A stretch of 57,020 bases of DNA from an uncultured Gammaproteobacteria bacterium. Lineage in GTDB: Bacteria > Pseudomonadota > Gammaproteobacteria > PS1 > Pseudothioglobaceae. Shown here piece after piece: positions 31,446-55,170 of the stretch. The notes beneath the pieces were generated by a model, which was not told where the DNA came from, searched no databases, and saw only the letters and a list, made by a program, of their open reading frames with translations. The stretch covers positions 1-57,020 of the forward strand of contig CABWZI010000011.1 of assembly GCA_902509905.1 (NCBI GenBank), written 5' to 3'. The first letter of the stretch is position 1. The number at the start of each line of letters is the position of its first letter. Position numbers and translations under genes: made by a program.

Positions 31446-33086
31446 TTAACCTTTCGAGGACTCTATCATTGCTTCTATCTGTTCATCCTCTATGCGCGTC
31501 ATAAGCGGCTTAAATTTATTAATTTGATGCCCTAAAAGAGGACTCTTCATGTCATCCCAGTTTAGAGAGTCAACATTTAGGAATGCTTCTGATTTCTCTG
31601 CCATCTCAGGGAGCACTGGCTTTAAGTAAGTCATCAGCACTCTAAAGAGGTTTATTGCTAGAGAGGTAATCTCGTGAACCTCCTGCATCTTGCCTTCTTC
31701 TTTTGCGAGCTGCCAGGGCTTCTTCTCATCAATGTACTGGTTGGCTTTGTCCGCAAGCTTCATAATCGAGCGCATCGCCTGACCAAAGTTTCTATCCTCA
31801 TAGTGCCCTGCTATCTCGCTGCTAGCAGACACAAACTCATCATAAAGCTCTTGCTCACAGCAATTATTAGAGAGCTCTTTGTCAAATTTCTTAACCACAA
31901 ATGAAGCGCTCCTAGAGGCAATATTAACCACCTTGCCAACAAGATCTGAGTTAACACGCTGCTTAAAGTCTTCAAGATTAAGATCAATGTCGTCAATCTT
32001 AGAGGAAAGCTTGTAGGCATAGTAATATCGAAGGCACTCAGGATTAAGCGTTTCAAGATAAGTTCTGGCTTGTATGAAAGTTCCACGCGACTTACTCATC
32101 TTTTGCCCATTAACGGACAAGAATCCGTGAGCAAAAATTGCGTTCGGCGTTCTAAAGTTTGACCCAATGAGCGTAGCCGGCCAGAACAATGCATGGAAGT
32201 AGACAATGTCCTTACCAATGAAGTGATAGAGCTCAGTATCAGAGCCCTTCTCAAAAAAGTCATCAAACTCAAGGTCGGATTTATCGCAGAGCTTTTTAAA
32301 GCTTGCCATATAACCTATCGGAGCATCTAACCATACATAGAAGTATTTGTCCTCTGTTCCCGGTATCTTGAAGCCAAAATACGGCTTATCTCTTGATATA
32401 TCCCACTGCTGAAGTCCTTGATCAAACCATTCGGCCAATTTATTGCTAACCTCATCTTGAAGGTGTCCAGCCTTAGTCCAGTCTTTGAGCTGTTGCTCAA
32501 ATTGAGGCAGATCAAAGAAGTAGTGTTCAGAATCCTTCTCAACAGGCACAGCTCCAGAGACAACTGACCTTGCATTTTTAAGCTCAGTCGTTGAGTAGGT
32601 TGCACCGCATACTTCACAGTTATCACCGTATTGATCGTCCGCACCACATTTAGGGCACTCACCTTTTATGAAGCGATCTGGCAAAAACATCTCTTTTTCA
32701 GGGTCAAATGCCTGAGATATAACCCGTGTCTTGATGAAGCCAGACTCTTTTAAACGTGAATAGATTAACTCAGAGAAATAACGATTCTCATCTGAGTGCG
32801 TTGAATGGAACTGACTAAACTCAATATTAAAGTCTTTAAAGTCAGCCTGATGCCGCTTACTCACCTCAGCGATGAGCTCTTCAGGGTCAATACCCATCTC
32901 ATTAGCTTTGAGCATGATAGGAGTCCCGTGCGCATCATCAGCGCAGACGTAATGGCATTCATTACCTTGCATCTTTTGAAAACGAACCCATATATCAGTC
33001 TGAATATACTCCAGAAGATGACCAAGGTGGATTTCACCATTGGCATAGGGAAGCGCTGAAGTAACAAGAATTCTGCGTTTAGTCAT
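31446..33086 (-). CDS. metG: Methionyl-tRNA synthetase
   Basis: 546 residues. The HIGH-type motif is [15 protein letters not shown] near residue 13. The zinc-binding knuckles are [18 protein letters not shown] near residues 142-160. The KMSKS loop is KMSKSRGTF near 330. It attaches methionine to tRNA-Met. The C-terminal dimerisation/tRNA-binding domain found in longer (about 670-residue) enzymes is absent, as in many bacterial forms. It is transcribed toward the tRNA-Ser and diverges from mrp. Confidence 0.95.
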
Positions 33087-33176
33087 AATTAGTCTTCAAT
33101 AATCCCAATATAAATAAGGATTTGTGGGATAGTTGTACGATAAAATATCGCTATTTTACCGACCGAGGTCACCAAA

Positions 33177-49921: not shown

Positions 49922-50287
49922 ATGAATATTTTATTGCTGGTTGCACACGGAAGCAGAAGAGAGGAATCAAACTTGGAGGTTGACTCTTTATCAAAAAAAA
50001 TGCTCAAATTTAATTCAAGTCAATTTGACAAAGTCATGCCTGCCTTTCTAGAGTTTGCCTCCCCTTCCATCCCAGAGGCTATCGAAAAATGCTCTGAAAT
50101 GGGAGCACAACGAGTTACCGTATTGCCCTACTTTCTCTCAGCCGGGGTTCACATCAATAGAGACATCCCAGATGAAGTAAACAAAGCCTCACAAGATTTT
50201 CCTAATCTTGAAATTAATGTAACGAACTATTTTGGATCCAGAGAGGAAATTGCTGAGCTTTTAATGAAGACTGCAATGGAAAAATAA
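49922..50287 (+). CDS. CbiX-type sirohydrochlorin chelatase-like protein
   Basis: 121 residues. LLVAHGSRREESNLEVD near the start holds the first metal-site histidine, and PYFLSAGVHINRDIPDEV the second. Short CbiX enzymes insert cobalt, nickel or iron into sirohydrochlorin. It diverges from hemH; heme and siroheme metabolism are thus side by side. Confidence 0.85.
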   Translation: MNILLLVAHGSRREESNLEVDSLSKKMLKFNSSQFDKVMPAFLEFASPSIPEAIEKCSEMGAQRVTVLPYFLSAGVHINRDIPDEVNKASQDFPNLEINVTNYFGSREEIAELLMKTAMEK

Positions 50288-50296
50288 ATTAAGTTT

Positions 50297-51301
50297 TTAG
50301 ATCTTAAAACCTTTCTGAATCCATTGATTGTTTGTTTGATATACGGTTCCAATAAGCCCCATATTTTTCTTTTTTGAAAGATAGACTGGAATATCTTTAA
50401 GGACCGGTTTAAGCCTCCCCTTGTTCTCGAAACTTTTCTGGAAATCACTTGCAACAAAAATATCCAAAAAATTTCTGACTAAATCGCTTGTGATATAAAC
50501 GCCTCCTAGTGCGCCCACTGTCAAGGCCATACTGCCAGCTACAGAGCCAAATATTTTACAAAACATCTGCACAGTTTCGTCTGCCAATGGGTCATTATCT
50601 CCATTCACCGCTGATGCAGTTATATCGGCTGGAGACTGGTGAACCATTACATTGCCACTGATATGACAAAGCGCCTCATAAAGATTCATAATCCCAGGAC
50701 CCGAGAGAATTCTCTCAACAGCCACATGGCCAAACTTTTTAGTTAATAGAGTCAGGATTTCAAACTCAAGACTGGTATTCGGGGCAAAATCTGAGTGACC
50801 ACCTTCGCCTGCAATAGGTAGCCAGCCAGAGGGTGACATAATTAAACCACAGACTCCTAATCCGGTTCCAGGCCCAATAACTAGTCTTAATTTTTCTGGC
50901 TCAACAATGCCTTTGTTGATTATGATAACGTCATCATCTTCGAGTGTAGTCGTAGCAAAGGCTTGAGCTGTAAAGTCATTGATCCACTGCACATCGACTC
51001 CTTTGAGGGCACTTTCCACATCTTTTTTGCTGATAACCCAGTGGTTATTTGCAAGCTTAAAGACGTCGAGATGAACTGTGCCAGCAGTGGCAAAGCAGGC
51101 TGCTTGAATTTCTATGCCTGTGAGATCAGAAAGGTAGAAAAGAATTGCACTTTGAATATCTTCAAAGTCTGTGCACTTTAAACTTTGTATGTTTTCCATC
51201 TCAGAAGACCCAGGTGAAACCAGCGCAAACCTAGCGTTAGTTGCTCCAATATCTCCAACTAGATTGTAAAGCTTGCTACTAATGGTTCCTGTCTCCGTCA
51301 A
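50297..51301 (-). CDS. glk: Glucokinase
   Basis: About 334 residues. LVGDIGATNARFALVS (phosphate motif) at the N-terminus, IGPGTGLGVCGL near residue 155, and GEGGHSDFAP (catalytic region) near 180. It phosphorylates glucose with ATP, feeding zwf. The start is unclear: TTG 51301 has no ribosome-binding site, while ATT 51283 overlaps the cupin stop and has GGAGACAGG upstream. No ATG or GTG fits. The upstream in-frame ATG at 51361 lies deep in the cupin gene. It is coupled to the cupin gene. Confidence 0.88.
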   Translation of the reverse strand: MTETGTISSKLYNLVGDIGATNARFALVSPGSSEMENIQSLKCTDFEDIQSAILFYLSDLTGIEIQAACFATAGTVHLDVFKLANNHWVISKKDVESALKGVDVQWINDFTAQAFATTTLEDDDVIIINKGIVEPEKLRLVIGPGTGLGVCGLIMSPSGWLPIAGEGGHSDFAPNTSLEFEILTLLTKKFGHVAVERILSGPGIMNLYEALCHISGNVMVHQSPADITASAVNGDNDPLADETVQMFCKIFGSVAGSMALTVGALGGVYITSDLVRNFLDIFVASDFQKSFENKGRLKPVLKDIPVYLSKKKNMGLIGTVYQTNNQWIQKGFKI

Positions 51302-51602
51302 AAATACAGACCATGTATAGTTCTTCGTCGCCAGTATTGTGGACACGGTGAAACACACCATCCTCGATTAGGATCATCTCGCCACCTGAAATATCAAATT
51401 CTTTATCATCGAGCTGCATTCTTCCTGTTCCGCTCATAATCATATAAACTTCCTCTTTACCTGGATGAGAATGTCCTCGAGTGGATTTCCCTGGATGAAG
51501 AGTCGTCGAGCTGACGACAAGATTTTTAAGCGATGTGTTATCTTTAAGGAGATAGGTTTCGTTATCTTTAACAATCTCACCGTCTATATTATTAATTTTC
51601 AT
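51279..51602 (-). CDS. Cupin-domain protein (phosphomannose isomerase-like/sugar isomerase-type)
   Basis: 107 residues with the cupin motifs G-x5-HxH (STRGHSHPGKEEVYMI) and the second histidine in GVFHRVHNTG. Small metal-binding beta-barrel proteins of this type often act on sugars. It is placed between pgl and glk; a role in glucose metabolism is inferred. Its stop overlaps the possible ATT start of glk. Confidence 0.8.
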   Translation of the reverse strand: MKINNIDGEIVKDNETYLLKDNTSLKNLVVSSTTLHPGKSTRGHSHPGKEEVYMIMSGTGRMQLDDKEFDISGGEMILIEDGVFHRVHNTGDEELYMVCIFDGDRNH

Positions 51603-51696
51603 AAACTATTTATAAAATTGACATAAAGGTACCAATATTATCCCTTGCTTTTTTAAAAACAAATAAGTCTTTCGTCAATATGCCAATTCGTTACTT

Positions 51697-52416
51697 TTAA
51701 GGGCTCCAAAAAATATCGAGACCTTGCTCTAGAAAAGCATAGATTGGCATCTTGCTCGAATCCCTGATACTCATCGCTTCCTCAAGCGTATGCAGCTTGG
51801 CGGAACCATTTAGATGCAGAATAACCCTCTTAGCCTCGAAAATAGATTTTGCAGTTAGGCTAATCCGTTCATGTGGCGCCGTTTTAGGAGTTGTTGCAAC
51901 AAAGTGACTCTTTGTATTTAAGTCCATACCAATCGGTAACTCTTCTGAGCATGGAAAGAGTGATGCTGTATGGCCATCTGCACCCATCCCTAAAATAATG
52001 AGGTCAAAAGGCATAGCAATACCCTTCAGAGCGTCTTCGCTCAATAAAGCACCCTTCTTTGCACTTTTGGCATCATTTTTAAGGGGGATAAAATTAACCT
52101 TTGCTGCTTTGTTTTTTATGAAGTGCGTTTTAACTAGCAGTTCATTACTATCCTTGTGGTCAGAGTCAACCCAACGATCATCAACAAGAGTCAGGTCTAC
52201 TTTAGACCAATCTATATTTAAAAGGGATAATTCTTCAAACAGCGGCTTGGGGGTGCTTCCTCCAGAAACCGCAAGACTGGCGCGTCCTCTCTCTTCAATT
52301 GCCTCGATTAAAATTTCACCGATGTTTTGACTCAGATCAAACACCAAAGATTCGCTACTATTGGTACTATAAAAACCAACGTGCTCTGGCAAAAAATAAG
52401 TTTTACTACTCCTCAT
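51697..52416 (-). CDS. pgl: 6-phosphogluconolactonase
   Basis: About 239 residues from ATG 52416. SLAVSGGSTPKPLF near residue 42, DLTLVDDRWVD near 70 and LGMGADGHTASLFP near 145 are the DevB/pgl motifs. It hydrolyses 6-phosphogluconolactone. In the original gene order its ATG overlaps the zwf stop codon (TAG 52408-52406) by a few bases. A deletion in zwf has joined zwf's frame to it, so a 649-residue open frame now exists. Confidence 0.9.
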   Translation of the reverse strand: MRSSKTYFLPEHVGFYSTNSSESLVFDLSQNIGEILIEAIEERGRASLAVSGGSTPKPLFEELSLLNIDWSKVDLTLVDDRWVDSDHKDSNELLVKTHFIKNKAAKVNFIPLKNDAKSAKKGALLSEDALKGIAMPFDLIILGMGADGHTASLFPCSEELPIGMDLNTKSHFVATTPKTAPHERISLTAKSIFEAKRVILHLNGSAKLHTLEEAMSIRDSSKMPIYAFLEQGLDIFWSP

Positions 52417-53646
52417 GCCAGATATGCCCGTTTCTTGAAATGAGCTCTTCGCTCTTATCTGGACCATTACTTCCAGAACTGTAATAGTAAAGCTCCTGAT
52501 TTGATTTGCTAGCAGCATCCAAGGTCTCATCGCACCATTTCCATGCCAATTCGACCTCTTCTCATTAAAAATATAGTGACCATCAGACTTAAAGTGAACT
52601 ACAATCTGTGTTGTCTTTGAGGCCATCCTTTTCCCGGTTCTTAGGTAGAAAGGAACTCCCAGCCATCGCCAGTTTTGAATTTCAGCTTTGAGGGCAACAA
52701 AAGTCTCAGTAATACTATCTTGATTTGCGCCATCCTCATGAATATAACCTGGCGCCTTAACCCCATCAATTTCGCCGTCAGTATATTGCGCTGCAACGAA
52801 GTTAGACGAGATACTGTCTTTATCAAGCGATTTTAATGCTTCCAAGACCTTTACCTTTTCTGATCGGATACTCTGGTCATCAAGCCTGTTTGGTGGCTCC
52901 ATCGCGATCAGGCACAATAACTGCAGAAGATGACTTTGCACCATGTCCCTGAGCTGCCCCATCCCATCGAAATAACCCCATCGATCTTCAATTCCAACGG
53001 ACTCTGCCGCCGTTATCTCAACGTACTCTATTCCTTTGCTATTCCATTGACTTGAAAACAGCGAGTTTGCAAACCTAAGAGTGATTAAGTTTTGAACTGT
53101 TTCCTTTCCTAAGTAATGATCAATACGATAGATCTGCGACTCATCAAAATGCCTCGTGAGTTTTTCATTAATCTCATTCGAGGTATCCAAATCATAGCCA
53201 ATCGGTTTTTCAACAACAATTCTACAATCAGGAGTAATCAAATTTGACTCTTTAAGACCATCACAGACCGTTTCAAAAAGGCTAGGTGAAATAGCTAAAT
53301 AGTAAGCCACAGGCTTTGCCCAATCACTGAGCTTTTGGCTGAGGTCTTTATAGCTTTCGTTTTTTGATAAATCACATCTGCAGTAGCTGAAGCGCTCTAC
53401 TAGTCGAGAAACCGCTACTGGATTTAAGTATTCAGGAATAACAAACTCATTAAGCGCTTTATTGACTTCATCTTTTATATCTTTATCTGAAATATCCTTT
53501 CTTCCAACACCTAAAATTTGCAAGGAATCGCTCAGCATATTATCTCTTTCGAGGTAATACCAGGCTGGAATAAGCTTACGAATTGAAAGATCCCCTAGGA
53601 CTCCAAAGAGAACAAAGCTGTCAATTTTTTTTAATGATTCAGACAA
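52406..53646 (-). pseudogene. zwf: Glucose-6-phosphate dehydrogenase, internal deletion with frameshift
   Basis: The first about 361 codons are a normal G6PDH: GVLGDLSIRKLIPAWYYL near residue 14, RIDHYLGKETVQNL near 170, YLRTGKRMASKTTQIVVHFK near 335. After IFNE the frame becomes meaningless. Another frame from 52561 gives EEVELAWKWCDETLDAA and ends NGHIWHEE at TAG 52408, the true family C-terminus. Compared with E. coli Zwf from memory, about 77 codons are missing, and the deletion length must be 1 mod 3 (about 230-240 bases). The remaining protein probably lacks activity. An assembly error is possible. Confidence 0.88.
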
Positions 53647-53647
53647 G

Positions 53648-55096
53648 TCAGTATGCTCCTATATTGTAATCCTTTTTCTGAATCCATTCGTTATGGAAAA
53701 ACTCCCCTCTTTTTCCATCAACCCTCTCGTAAGTGTGCGCACCAAAGTAATCCCTTTGAGCTTGAAGCAGGTTTGCTGGCAAGCGAGCGTTTCTGTAGCC
53801 ATCAAAGTACGAAAGGGAAGAGGTCATTGCTGGGATGGATATACCATTTGAAATAGCAATAGATACCACCCTTCTCCATCCCTCTTGCGATTTATTAATC
53901 TTGTCCTTGAAAAATGGATCTAAGAGTAAATTTTTAATGTCTGAGTTTCTATCGTAAGCATCCTTTATCTTTGATAGGAAGACTGATCTGATGATGCATC
54001 CACCTCTCCACATGAGAGCAATTGCACCATAATTGAGGCTCCAATCAAACTCTTTAGCGGCTCTGGATAGCAGTATATATCCTTGAGCATAAGAAACCAT
54101 TTTTGAAGCATAAAGCGCGTCATGGATGTCTTTAAGGACTTGCTCTCTGTCTCCATCAAACTTAATGGATGGACCATCAAACATGGTTGATGCCTCCATC
54201 CTCTCATCTTTTCTTGATGAAAGATACCTAGCAAATACAGCCTCACCAATTAGAGTGAGTGGGGCGCCAAGCTCCAGCGCTACGGCAGCGGTCCACTTAC
54301 CGGTCCCCTTTTCTCCAGCAGTATCAAGAATATTGTCTATTAAATAGCTCCCATCCTTCTCTTTAAATTTAAGGATGTCGGCAGTAATTTCGATGAGATA
54401 GCTGTTGAGCTCTCCCTTATTCCATTTTTTGAAGACTTTGTGCATTTCATCATTAGTCATGCCCAAAACGTCTTTCATGATTTCATAGGCTTCACAAATA
54501 AGCTGCATATCACCGTACTCGATGCCGTTATGAACCATCTTAACGAAGTGTCCAGAGCCTCCTTCCCCTATCCAATCACAGCATGGCTCATTATCACCAA
54601 CTTTGGCAGATATGTTTTGAAAGATTTCCTTGACCTCAGGCCAGGCAGAGGCTGAGCCTCCTGGCATAATAGATGGGCCCTTTAACGCGCCTTCTTCTCC
54701 ACCAGAGACACCTGCACCAACAAACTGAAATCCCTTAGATTCTAACTCCTCAGTTCTTCTTGATGTGTCTGGGTAATGAGAGTTTCCACCATCAATAATG
54801 ATGTCACCCTGATCAAGGAGCGGAATCAGTTTTTGAATGTAATCATCAACAACCGAACCTGCAACAACCATAAGCATAATTTTGCGAGGCGGTTTGATTG
54901 AGTTTACAAAATCATCAAGACTCTCAAATCCAATAATCTTATTGTATTTTGCTCTATTGTTAACAATATTATCTATTTGCGGAGTGGTGCGGTTATGGAC
55001 AGCCACAGTGTACCCATTACTCTCCATATTTAAAGCCAGGCTCGACCCCATTACACCAAGGCCTATAAGGCCAATATCTGCATTGATATTATTCAT
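53648..55096 (-). CDS. gnd: 6-phosphogluconate dehydrogenase
   Basis: 482 residues. The NADP motif GLIGLGVMGSSLALN is at the N-terminus. VGAGVSGGEEGALKGPSIMPG near residue 128, KMVHNGIEYGDMQLI near 185 and GEKGTGKWTAAVALELGAPL near 260 mark the family. It decarboxylates 6-phosphogluconate. It begins the operon that continues into zwf and pgl, with one base between it and zwf. A repeat cluster upstream may regulate it. Confidence 0.96.
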   Translation of the reverse strand: MNNINADIGLIGLGVMGSSLALNMESNGYTVAVHNRTTPQIDNIVNNRAKYNKIIGFESLDDFVNSIKPPRKIMLMVVAGSVVDDYIQKLIPLLDQGDIIIDGGNSHYPDTSRRTEELESKGFQFVGAGVSGGEEGALKGPSIMPGGSASAWPEVKEIFQNISAKVGDNEPCCDWIGEGGSGHFVKMVHNGIEYGDMQLICEAYEIMKDVLGMTNDEMHKVFKKWNKGELNSYLIEITADILKFKEKDGSYLIDNILDTAGEKGTGKWTAAVALELGAPLTLIGEAVFARYLSSRKDERMEASTMFDGPSIKFDGDREQVLKDIHDALYASKMVSYAQGYILLSRAAKEFDWSLNYGAIALMWRGGCIIRSVFLSKIKDAYDRNSDIKNLLLDPFFKDKINKSQEGWRRVVSIAISNGISIPAMTSSLSYFDGYRNARLPANLLQAQRDYFGAHTYERVDGKRGEFFHNEWIQKKDYNIGAY

Positions 55097-55170
55097 AGTT
55101 TACAACAACAATATTGTCAATAGAAAACCTAAAAACGAAGCAAAGTTTAAACTAAAGATTTTTTGATATT

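Follow-up and report, generated by a model that had tools for sequence, protein, structure and literature searches.

A 232-base gap in zwf opens the shortened gene into pgl in the assembled genome of a Pseudothioglobus-type marine gammaproteobacterium

The locus described here lies on the minus strand of a window of 57,020 nucleotides (the whole stretch of DNA that was analysed: contig CABWZI010000011.1 of assembly GCA_902509905.1, contig C11 of the genome called G000 below) from an uncultured member of the Pseudothioglobaceae. It holds genes for the entry into the oxidative pentose phosphate pathway together with a glucokinase gene (Table 1), and gnd, pgl and glk, which a first-pass annotation made from the sequence alone had listed as remaining, are all three intact. 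Between gnd and the cupin-like gene, the list of open reading frames gives a single frame with a TTG start and a product of 649 aa, which that annotation had described as looking like a fusion of glucose-6-phosphate dehydrogenase (G6PDH) and lactonase. Pfam bears out the appearance, with a complete G6PD_N domain (PF00479, the N-terminal NADP domain, 1-183 of 183), a partial G6PD_C domain (PF02781, 2-180 of 296) and a complete Glucosamine_iso domain of the lactonase family (2-225 of 225). A profile search of the whole G000 genome placed the remainder of G6PD_C (244-296) at 52415-52579 in a different frame. In the zwf frame this tail stays open for 51 codons to 52409 and ends in a TAG at 52408-52406, and the ATG of pgl at 52416 overlaps its end, just as the first-pass annotation had read it. 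A promoter scan of the window returned 12 sites against 8.6 in shuffled sequence and a terminator scan 5 against 3.3.

Table 1. Features of the gnd-glk locus in the window
Feature	Positions	Strand	Evidence
Chimeric open frame zwf'-pgl, 649 codons, putative deletion product	51697..53646	-	ORF and Pfam
5' part of zwf (361 codons read in the zwf frame) with the Rossmann domain, the active-site segment and the beginning of the C-terminal domain	52564..53646	-	ORF, Pfam, alignment
Deletion joint, 232 bases of the relatives missing	52560..52563	-	Nucleotide alignment
Orphaned zwf C-terminus: 51 codons and TAG, out of frame with the 5' part	52406..52561	-	Profile search, alignment
pgl (6-phosphogluconolactonase), whole gene, with an ATG of its own that overlaps the stop of zwf	51697..52416	-	ORF, Pfam, comparison
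gnd (6-phosphogluconate dehydrogenase), intact, upstream neighbour of zwf	53648..55096	-	ORF, relatives search
Small cupin-like protein gene, conserved neighbour, named by sequence reading	51279..51602	-	ORF, locus comparison
glk (glucokinase)	50297..51361	-	ORF, relatives search

Comparison with related loci accounts for the split reading of zwf. A protein search returned 80 loci, and the six nearest, at 71-88% identity, are titled as Candidatus Thioglobus (L016, L017), the SUP05 cluster (L018), Pseudothioglobus aerophilus (L020) and uncultured gammaproteobacteria (L019, L021); these records suggest the genus name used here for G000. The zwf-pgl pair in L016 (AH-558-E04) and L021 (AG-390-E17) resembles that of the window in its gene order gnd-zwf-pgl-cupin-glk (preceded in the G008 locus by bgl), in a zwf stop that overlaps the pgl ATG and in a DNA identity of 77-85% on either side of the joint, but these relatives have an intact zwf of 490 codons and a pgl frame that is closed upstream of pgl. 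Against L016, the nucleotide match breaks at window position 52562/52561 (query 2639/2640) with 232 bases missing; the same number is missing against L021 and L017 once their respective overlaps (4 and 2 bases) are allowed for, and at the protein level the closed genome G003 also indicates a net loss of 232 bases. Since 232 is 1 mod 3, the reading frame shifts, and the deletion of about 230-240 bases near 52561, with a length of 1 mod 3, that the first-pass annotation had proposed is thereby made exact. With L021 as the yardstick, the four bases GAGA (52563-52560) fit on either side of the joint, with L017 two bases do and with L016 none, so that a micro-homology of 0-4 bases, depending on the relative, is possible.

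The gap is peculiar to the window among the zwf genes of the genus. The genus search covered 29 genomes including G000, and zwf is present in 13 of the 28 relatives (9 of the 11 with a completeness of 90% or more; the 15 without it are mostly incomplete genomes). In all 13 the gene is intact, with the G6PD_C profile matched from 2 to 295 or 296, no internal stops and open frames of 490-522 codons. The comparison of zwf in relatives that the first-pass annotation had called for therefore sets 13 intact genes against the 232-base gap of the window, and a relative with the same fusion, which it had named beforehand as one of two findings that would refute its reading, appeared in none of the 13 zwf-bearing genomes among the 28 searched. 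In a viral collection, two stretches matched a pattern and neither encodes a relative. Within G000, which is 89.57% complete in 46 contigs, so that a second zwf in a gap is possible, the G6PD_C profile search found no second copy, and the missing segment of 78 residues had no match, whereas the same query, as a positive control, found its counterpart in 13 of the 28 relatives; a second or relocated copy within the assembled genome was rejected on this basis. The window thus carries a frame broken relative to intact orthologues, as in a pseudogene. It has no complete G6PDH C-terminal domain in the same frame as the N-terminal domain, and whereas a natural G6PDH::6PGL fusion would have both domains complete in one frame, here the lactonase is complete and the G6PDH is cut.

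The consequences for the enzyme were judged from an AlphaFold2 model of the intact relative L016, built with 27 sequences and with a mean pLDDT of 87, but of 53-62 over residues 391-420. The missing residues 362-439 are predicted to contain three strands (371-377, 381-388 and 400-407) and two helices (408-415 and 420-429), and the tail that is shifted out of frame a helix (439-458), a strand (464-467) and a further helix (474-481). Across the 27 sequences, six invariant columns fall in the missing part (N370, P378, K389, Y421, L424 and F436) and five in the shifted tail (W446, Y466, G472, P473 and W487). With three predicted strands and two predicted helices gone, G6PDH activity is likely to be lost. 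The segment RIDHYLGKE and a later D and H, invariant over 15 sequences (columns 174-182, 234 and 239) and making up the active-site segments of G6PDH, lie upstream of the deletion and are present in the window, so that some residual activity is possible. A solved G6PDH of 428 residues (8i37) might have served as an example of a shortened enzyme but was set aside, as it too gives a match, though a weak one (E 0.012), in the later C-terminal region; a literature search found no paper on it. The lactonase part may still be made, either fused or from its own ATG. From the cut C-terminal domain and the single zwf found, it is a reasonable inference that entry into the oxidative pentose phosphate pathway would be stopped, as the first-pass annotation had supposed.

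Both parts of zwf still carry the marks of the intact gene. The 5' part is identical to that of G012 in 321 of 361 residues, and pairwise dN/dS against the same genome takes values of 0.08 (5' part) and 0.13 (tail, read in the zwf frame). The tail matches G012 in 38 of 51 residues (31-37 for the other pairs among the window, G012, G008, G007 and G003), and the amino acid changes private to the window number 6 among the 361 residues of the 5' part, 3 among the 51 of the tail and 4 among the 239 of pgl, too few to speak for or against relaxed selection. The tail can thus still be recognised as that of zwf, which, with this identity and this dN/dS, suggests that the deletion, if real, is recent, or else that it is an artefact. 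In the window-G012 pair, dN is 0.164 in the tail against 0.061 in the 5' part, a ratio of 2.7 compared with 1.0-1.9 for the other nine pairs, which could reflect relaxed constraint or a mosaic history of the locus. Positions 50000-55100 do form a mosaic: the zwf start region (53902-53303) is closer to G012 (0.87-0.89) than to G008 (0.67-0.75), and pgl shows the reverse, being closer to G008 (0.84-0.89) than to G012 (0.72-0.77), which suggests recombination among relatives. The idea that the deletion sits at a recombination boundary draws no support from this, as the window is only distantly similar to G008 before and after the joint (0.74 and 0.77), with a gradual rise beyond it.

The joint could also have arisen in the laboratory or during assembly, by a direct-join chimera from single-cell whole-genome amplification or by assembly along a minority read path lacking the 232 bases, in which case zwf in the cell would be intact; to this we give appreciable weight, though well short of an even chance. 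Such an origin would leave no further damage in either half of zwf, and both would still show constraint in the zwf frame, as is seen. A single genome of the species stands behind the joint. Among the nearest records, RIS_SAG_56 looks like a single-cell genome by its title; the names AH-558-E04 and AG-390-E17 are likewise of a style that we take to denote single-cell genomes. According to Lasken and Stockwell (2007, PMC1855051), amplification chimeras are mostly inversions, and direct joins over less than 10 kb are rare (11 of 475), which weighs against this origin, but such joins have complementary bases in 90.9% of cases; the joint in the window, with 0-4 shared bases, could by its form be one of them. 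Simple collapse of a repeat during assembly is unlikely, because no direct repeat of at least 8 bases with the needed spacing was found in L016 or L021, the two relatives examined for it.

A survey of G000 that covered frame-shifting gaps in orthologous genes may weigh somewhat against an artefact. For this, 1.2 million bases of G003 supplied 1104 open frames, which were set against stretches of G000; a first sample of 456,080 bases yielded 278 orthologues, of which 257 matched over at least 85% in one piece and 5 were flagged; a larger sample of 732,080 bases (48% of G000) yielded 433, with 407 over at least 85% and the same 5 flagged. Among the flagged cases zwf is the sole large one: L176 (G000:C14, about 12286, minus strand) has a one-base shift in a run of A, its main part being 92% identical to the G003 orthologue, and L181, L183 and L167 lie outside real coding sequence as judged by eye. 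A further 23 matches were incomplete, 21 of which touch the end of a sampled stretch. Of the remaining two, L170 is an intact frame of 559 codons with a different repetitive make-up, and L206 (G000:C14, 13959-14087), where 43 residues (2-44) are left of a G003 query of 169, may be another truncated gene. L178 has one in-frame gap of 21 residues. In the larger sample there was thus, apart from the possibly truncated L206, no other clear large frame-shifting deletion. The reverse comparison found a G003 orthologue for 271 of 425 G000 frames, 267 of them over at least 85%, and flagged two. One is zwf; in the other the break is in G003, where the orthologue of a window frame of 549 codons (31448-33095) is divided by a frame shift of one base near 953.4 kb.

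That the frame encodes a working bifunctional enzyme with a shortened G6PDH part, kept by selection, is very unlikely, because none of the 13 zwf-bearing relatives from the genus search is fused and all of them have stops there in the pgl frame. In favour of it, over the zwf tail this frame is open in the window alone and carries 1-3 stops in each of those relatives. When the window tail was back-translated with the codon usage of the genome, the pgl frame stayed open in 10.6% of 20,000 trials, which is not rare for a case that was picked for its open frame; multiplied by the one-in-three chance of the right frame, this gives about 0.035. Real stretches of 51 codons were open in that frame in 58 of 1671 cases. 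The openness is only mildly suggestive of something beyond chance. The elevated ratio of tail to 5' dN in the window-G012 pair is what a changed constraint might give, but the tail continues to be conserved when read in its original zwf frame, and a selected enzyme would have lost the predicted strands and helices noted above, with the last part of the domain replaced by unrelated sequence. G6PDH-lactonase fusions do exist in nature, among them 8em2 (GDH/6PGL endoplasmic bifunctional protein, with its G6PDH match at 27-384 of 791 residues) and the G6PDH::6PGL fusion of Giardia, both of which unite the two activities in one chain. Unlike the window, where the C-terminal domain is cut and shifted, the Giardia protein is described as having an active G6PD domain and a G6PD region like human G6PD.

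A real deletion, and with it a recent and ordinary breakage of zwf, is the reading that we consider probable, a weighting against the artefact that is a judgement and not a calculation. The 232 bases, which hold codons 362-439 of the only zwf found, would have been removed in the living cell, perhaps between short matching stretches of 0-4 bases by replication slippage or end joining. Ribosomes that start at zwf would then leave the zwf frame and run into pgl, producing a polypeptide of truncated G6PDH and lactonase. Ordinary pseudogenes arise by short deletions, and the window resembles them in its single internal deletion, in the few or no bases shared at the joint and in the undamaged remainder of the gene; it differs in that its shifted frame happens to enter the next gene without a stop. 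In the relatives, the zwf stop that overlaps pgl may be needed for its translation through coupling. It is conceivable, though very unlikely, that this lineage is losing the pathway with the deletion as a step that has become fixed, and that the stop-free zwf'-pgl frame has been kept as a leader that preserves the translation of pgl.

Among the relatives, the oxidative pentose phosphate pathway is patchy, as judged from gene content. The closed genome G004 has neither zwf nor gnd, which makes it plausible that members of the genus do without the pathway; of eight window genes looked for in the 20 kb surrounding its glk, four were found (cupin, glk, cbiX and hemH), with cupin-glk-hemH kept at the locus. 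In G005 (61% complete), bgl is followed by cupin and glk within about 270 bases, and no zwf or gnd was found elsewhere. The gnd-zwf-pgl block is absent from an otherwise conserved locus in both (L184 in G004, L186 in G005). In G011, gnd is present and zwf was not found, which may be an assembly gap because gnd lies at the end of a contig of 4565 bases. In L188 (G025), gnd is not adjacent to zwf but some 12 kb away on the opposite strand, and the glucokinase gene of G019 (G019:C1:314258-314937) appears in three pieces, two of them with stops, through decay or sequencing error. Literature searches on the pentose phosphate pathway or glycolysis in Thioglobus, Thioglobus singularis, Pseudothioglobus and SUP05 returned no relevant paper, as judged by the listing.

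For annotation, the frame of 649 codons should not be named a G6PDH-lactonase fusion enzyme. If the deletion is real, the locus would capture an ocean bacterium at an early stage of losing its way into the oxidative pentose phosphate pathway, which some of its relatives have and others lack.
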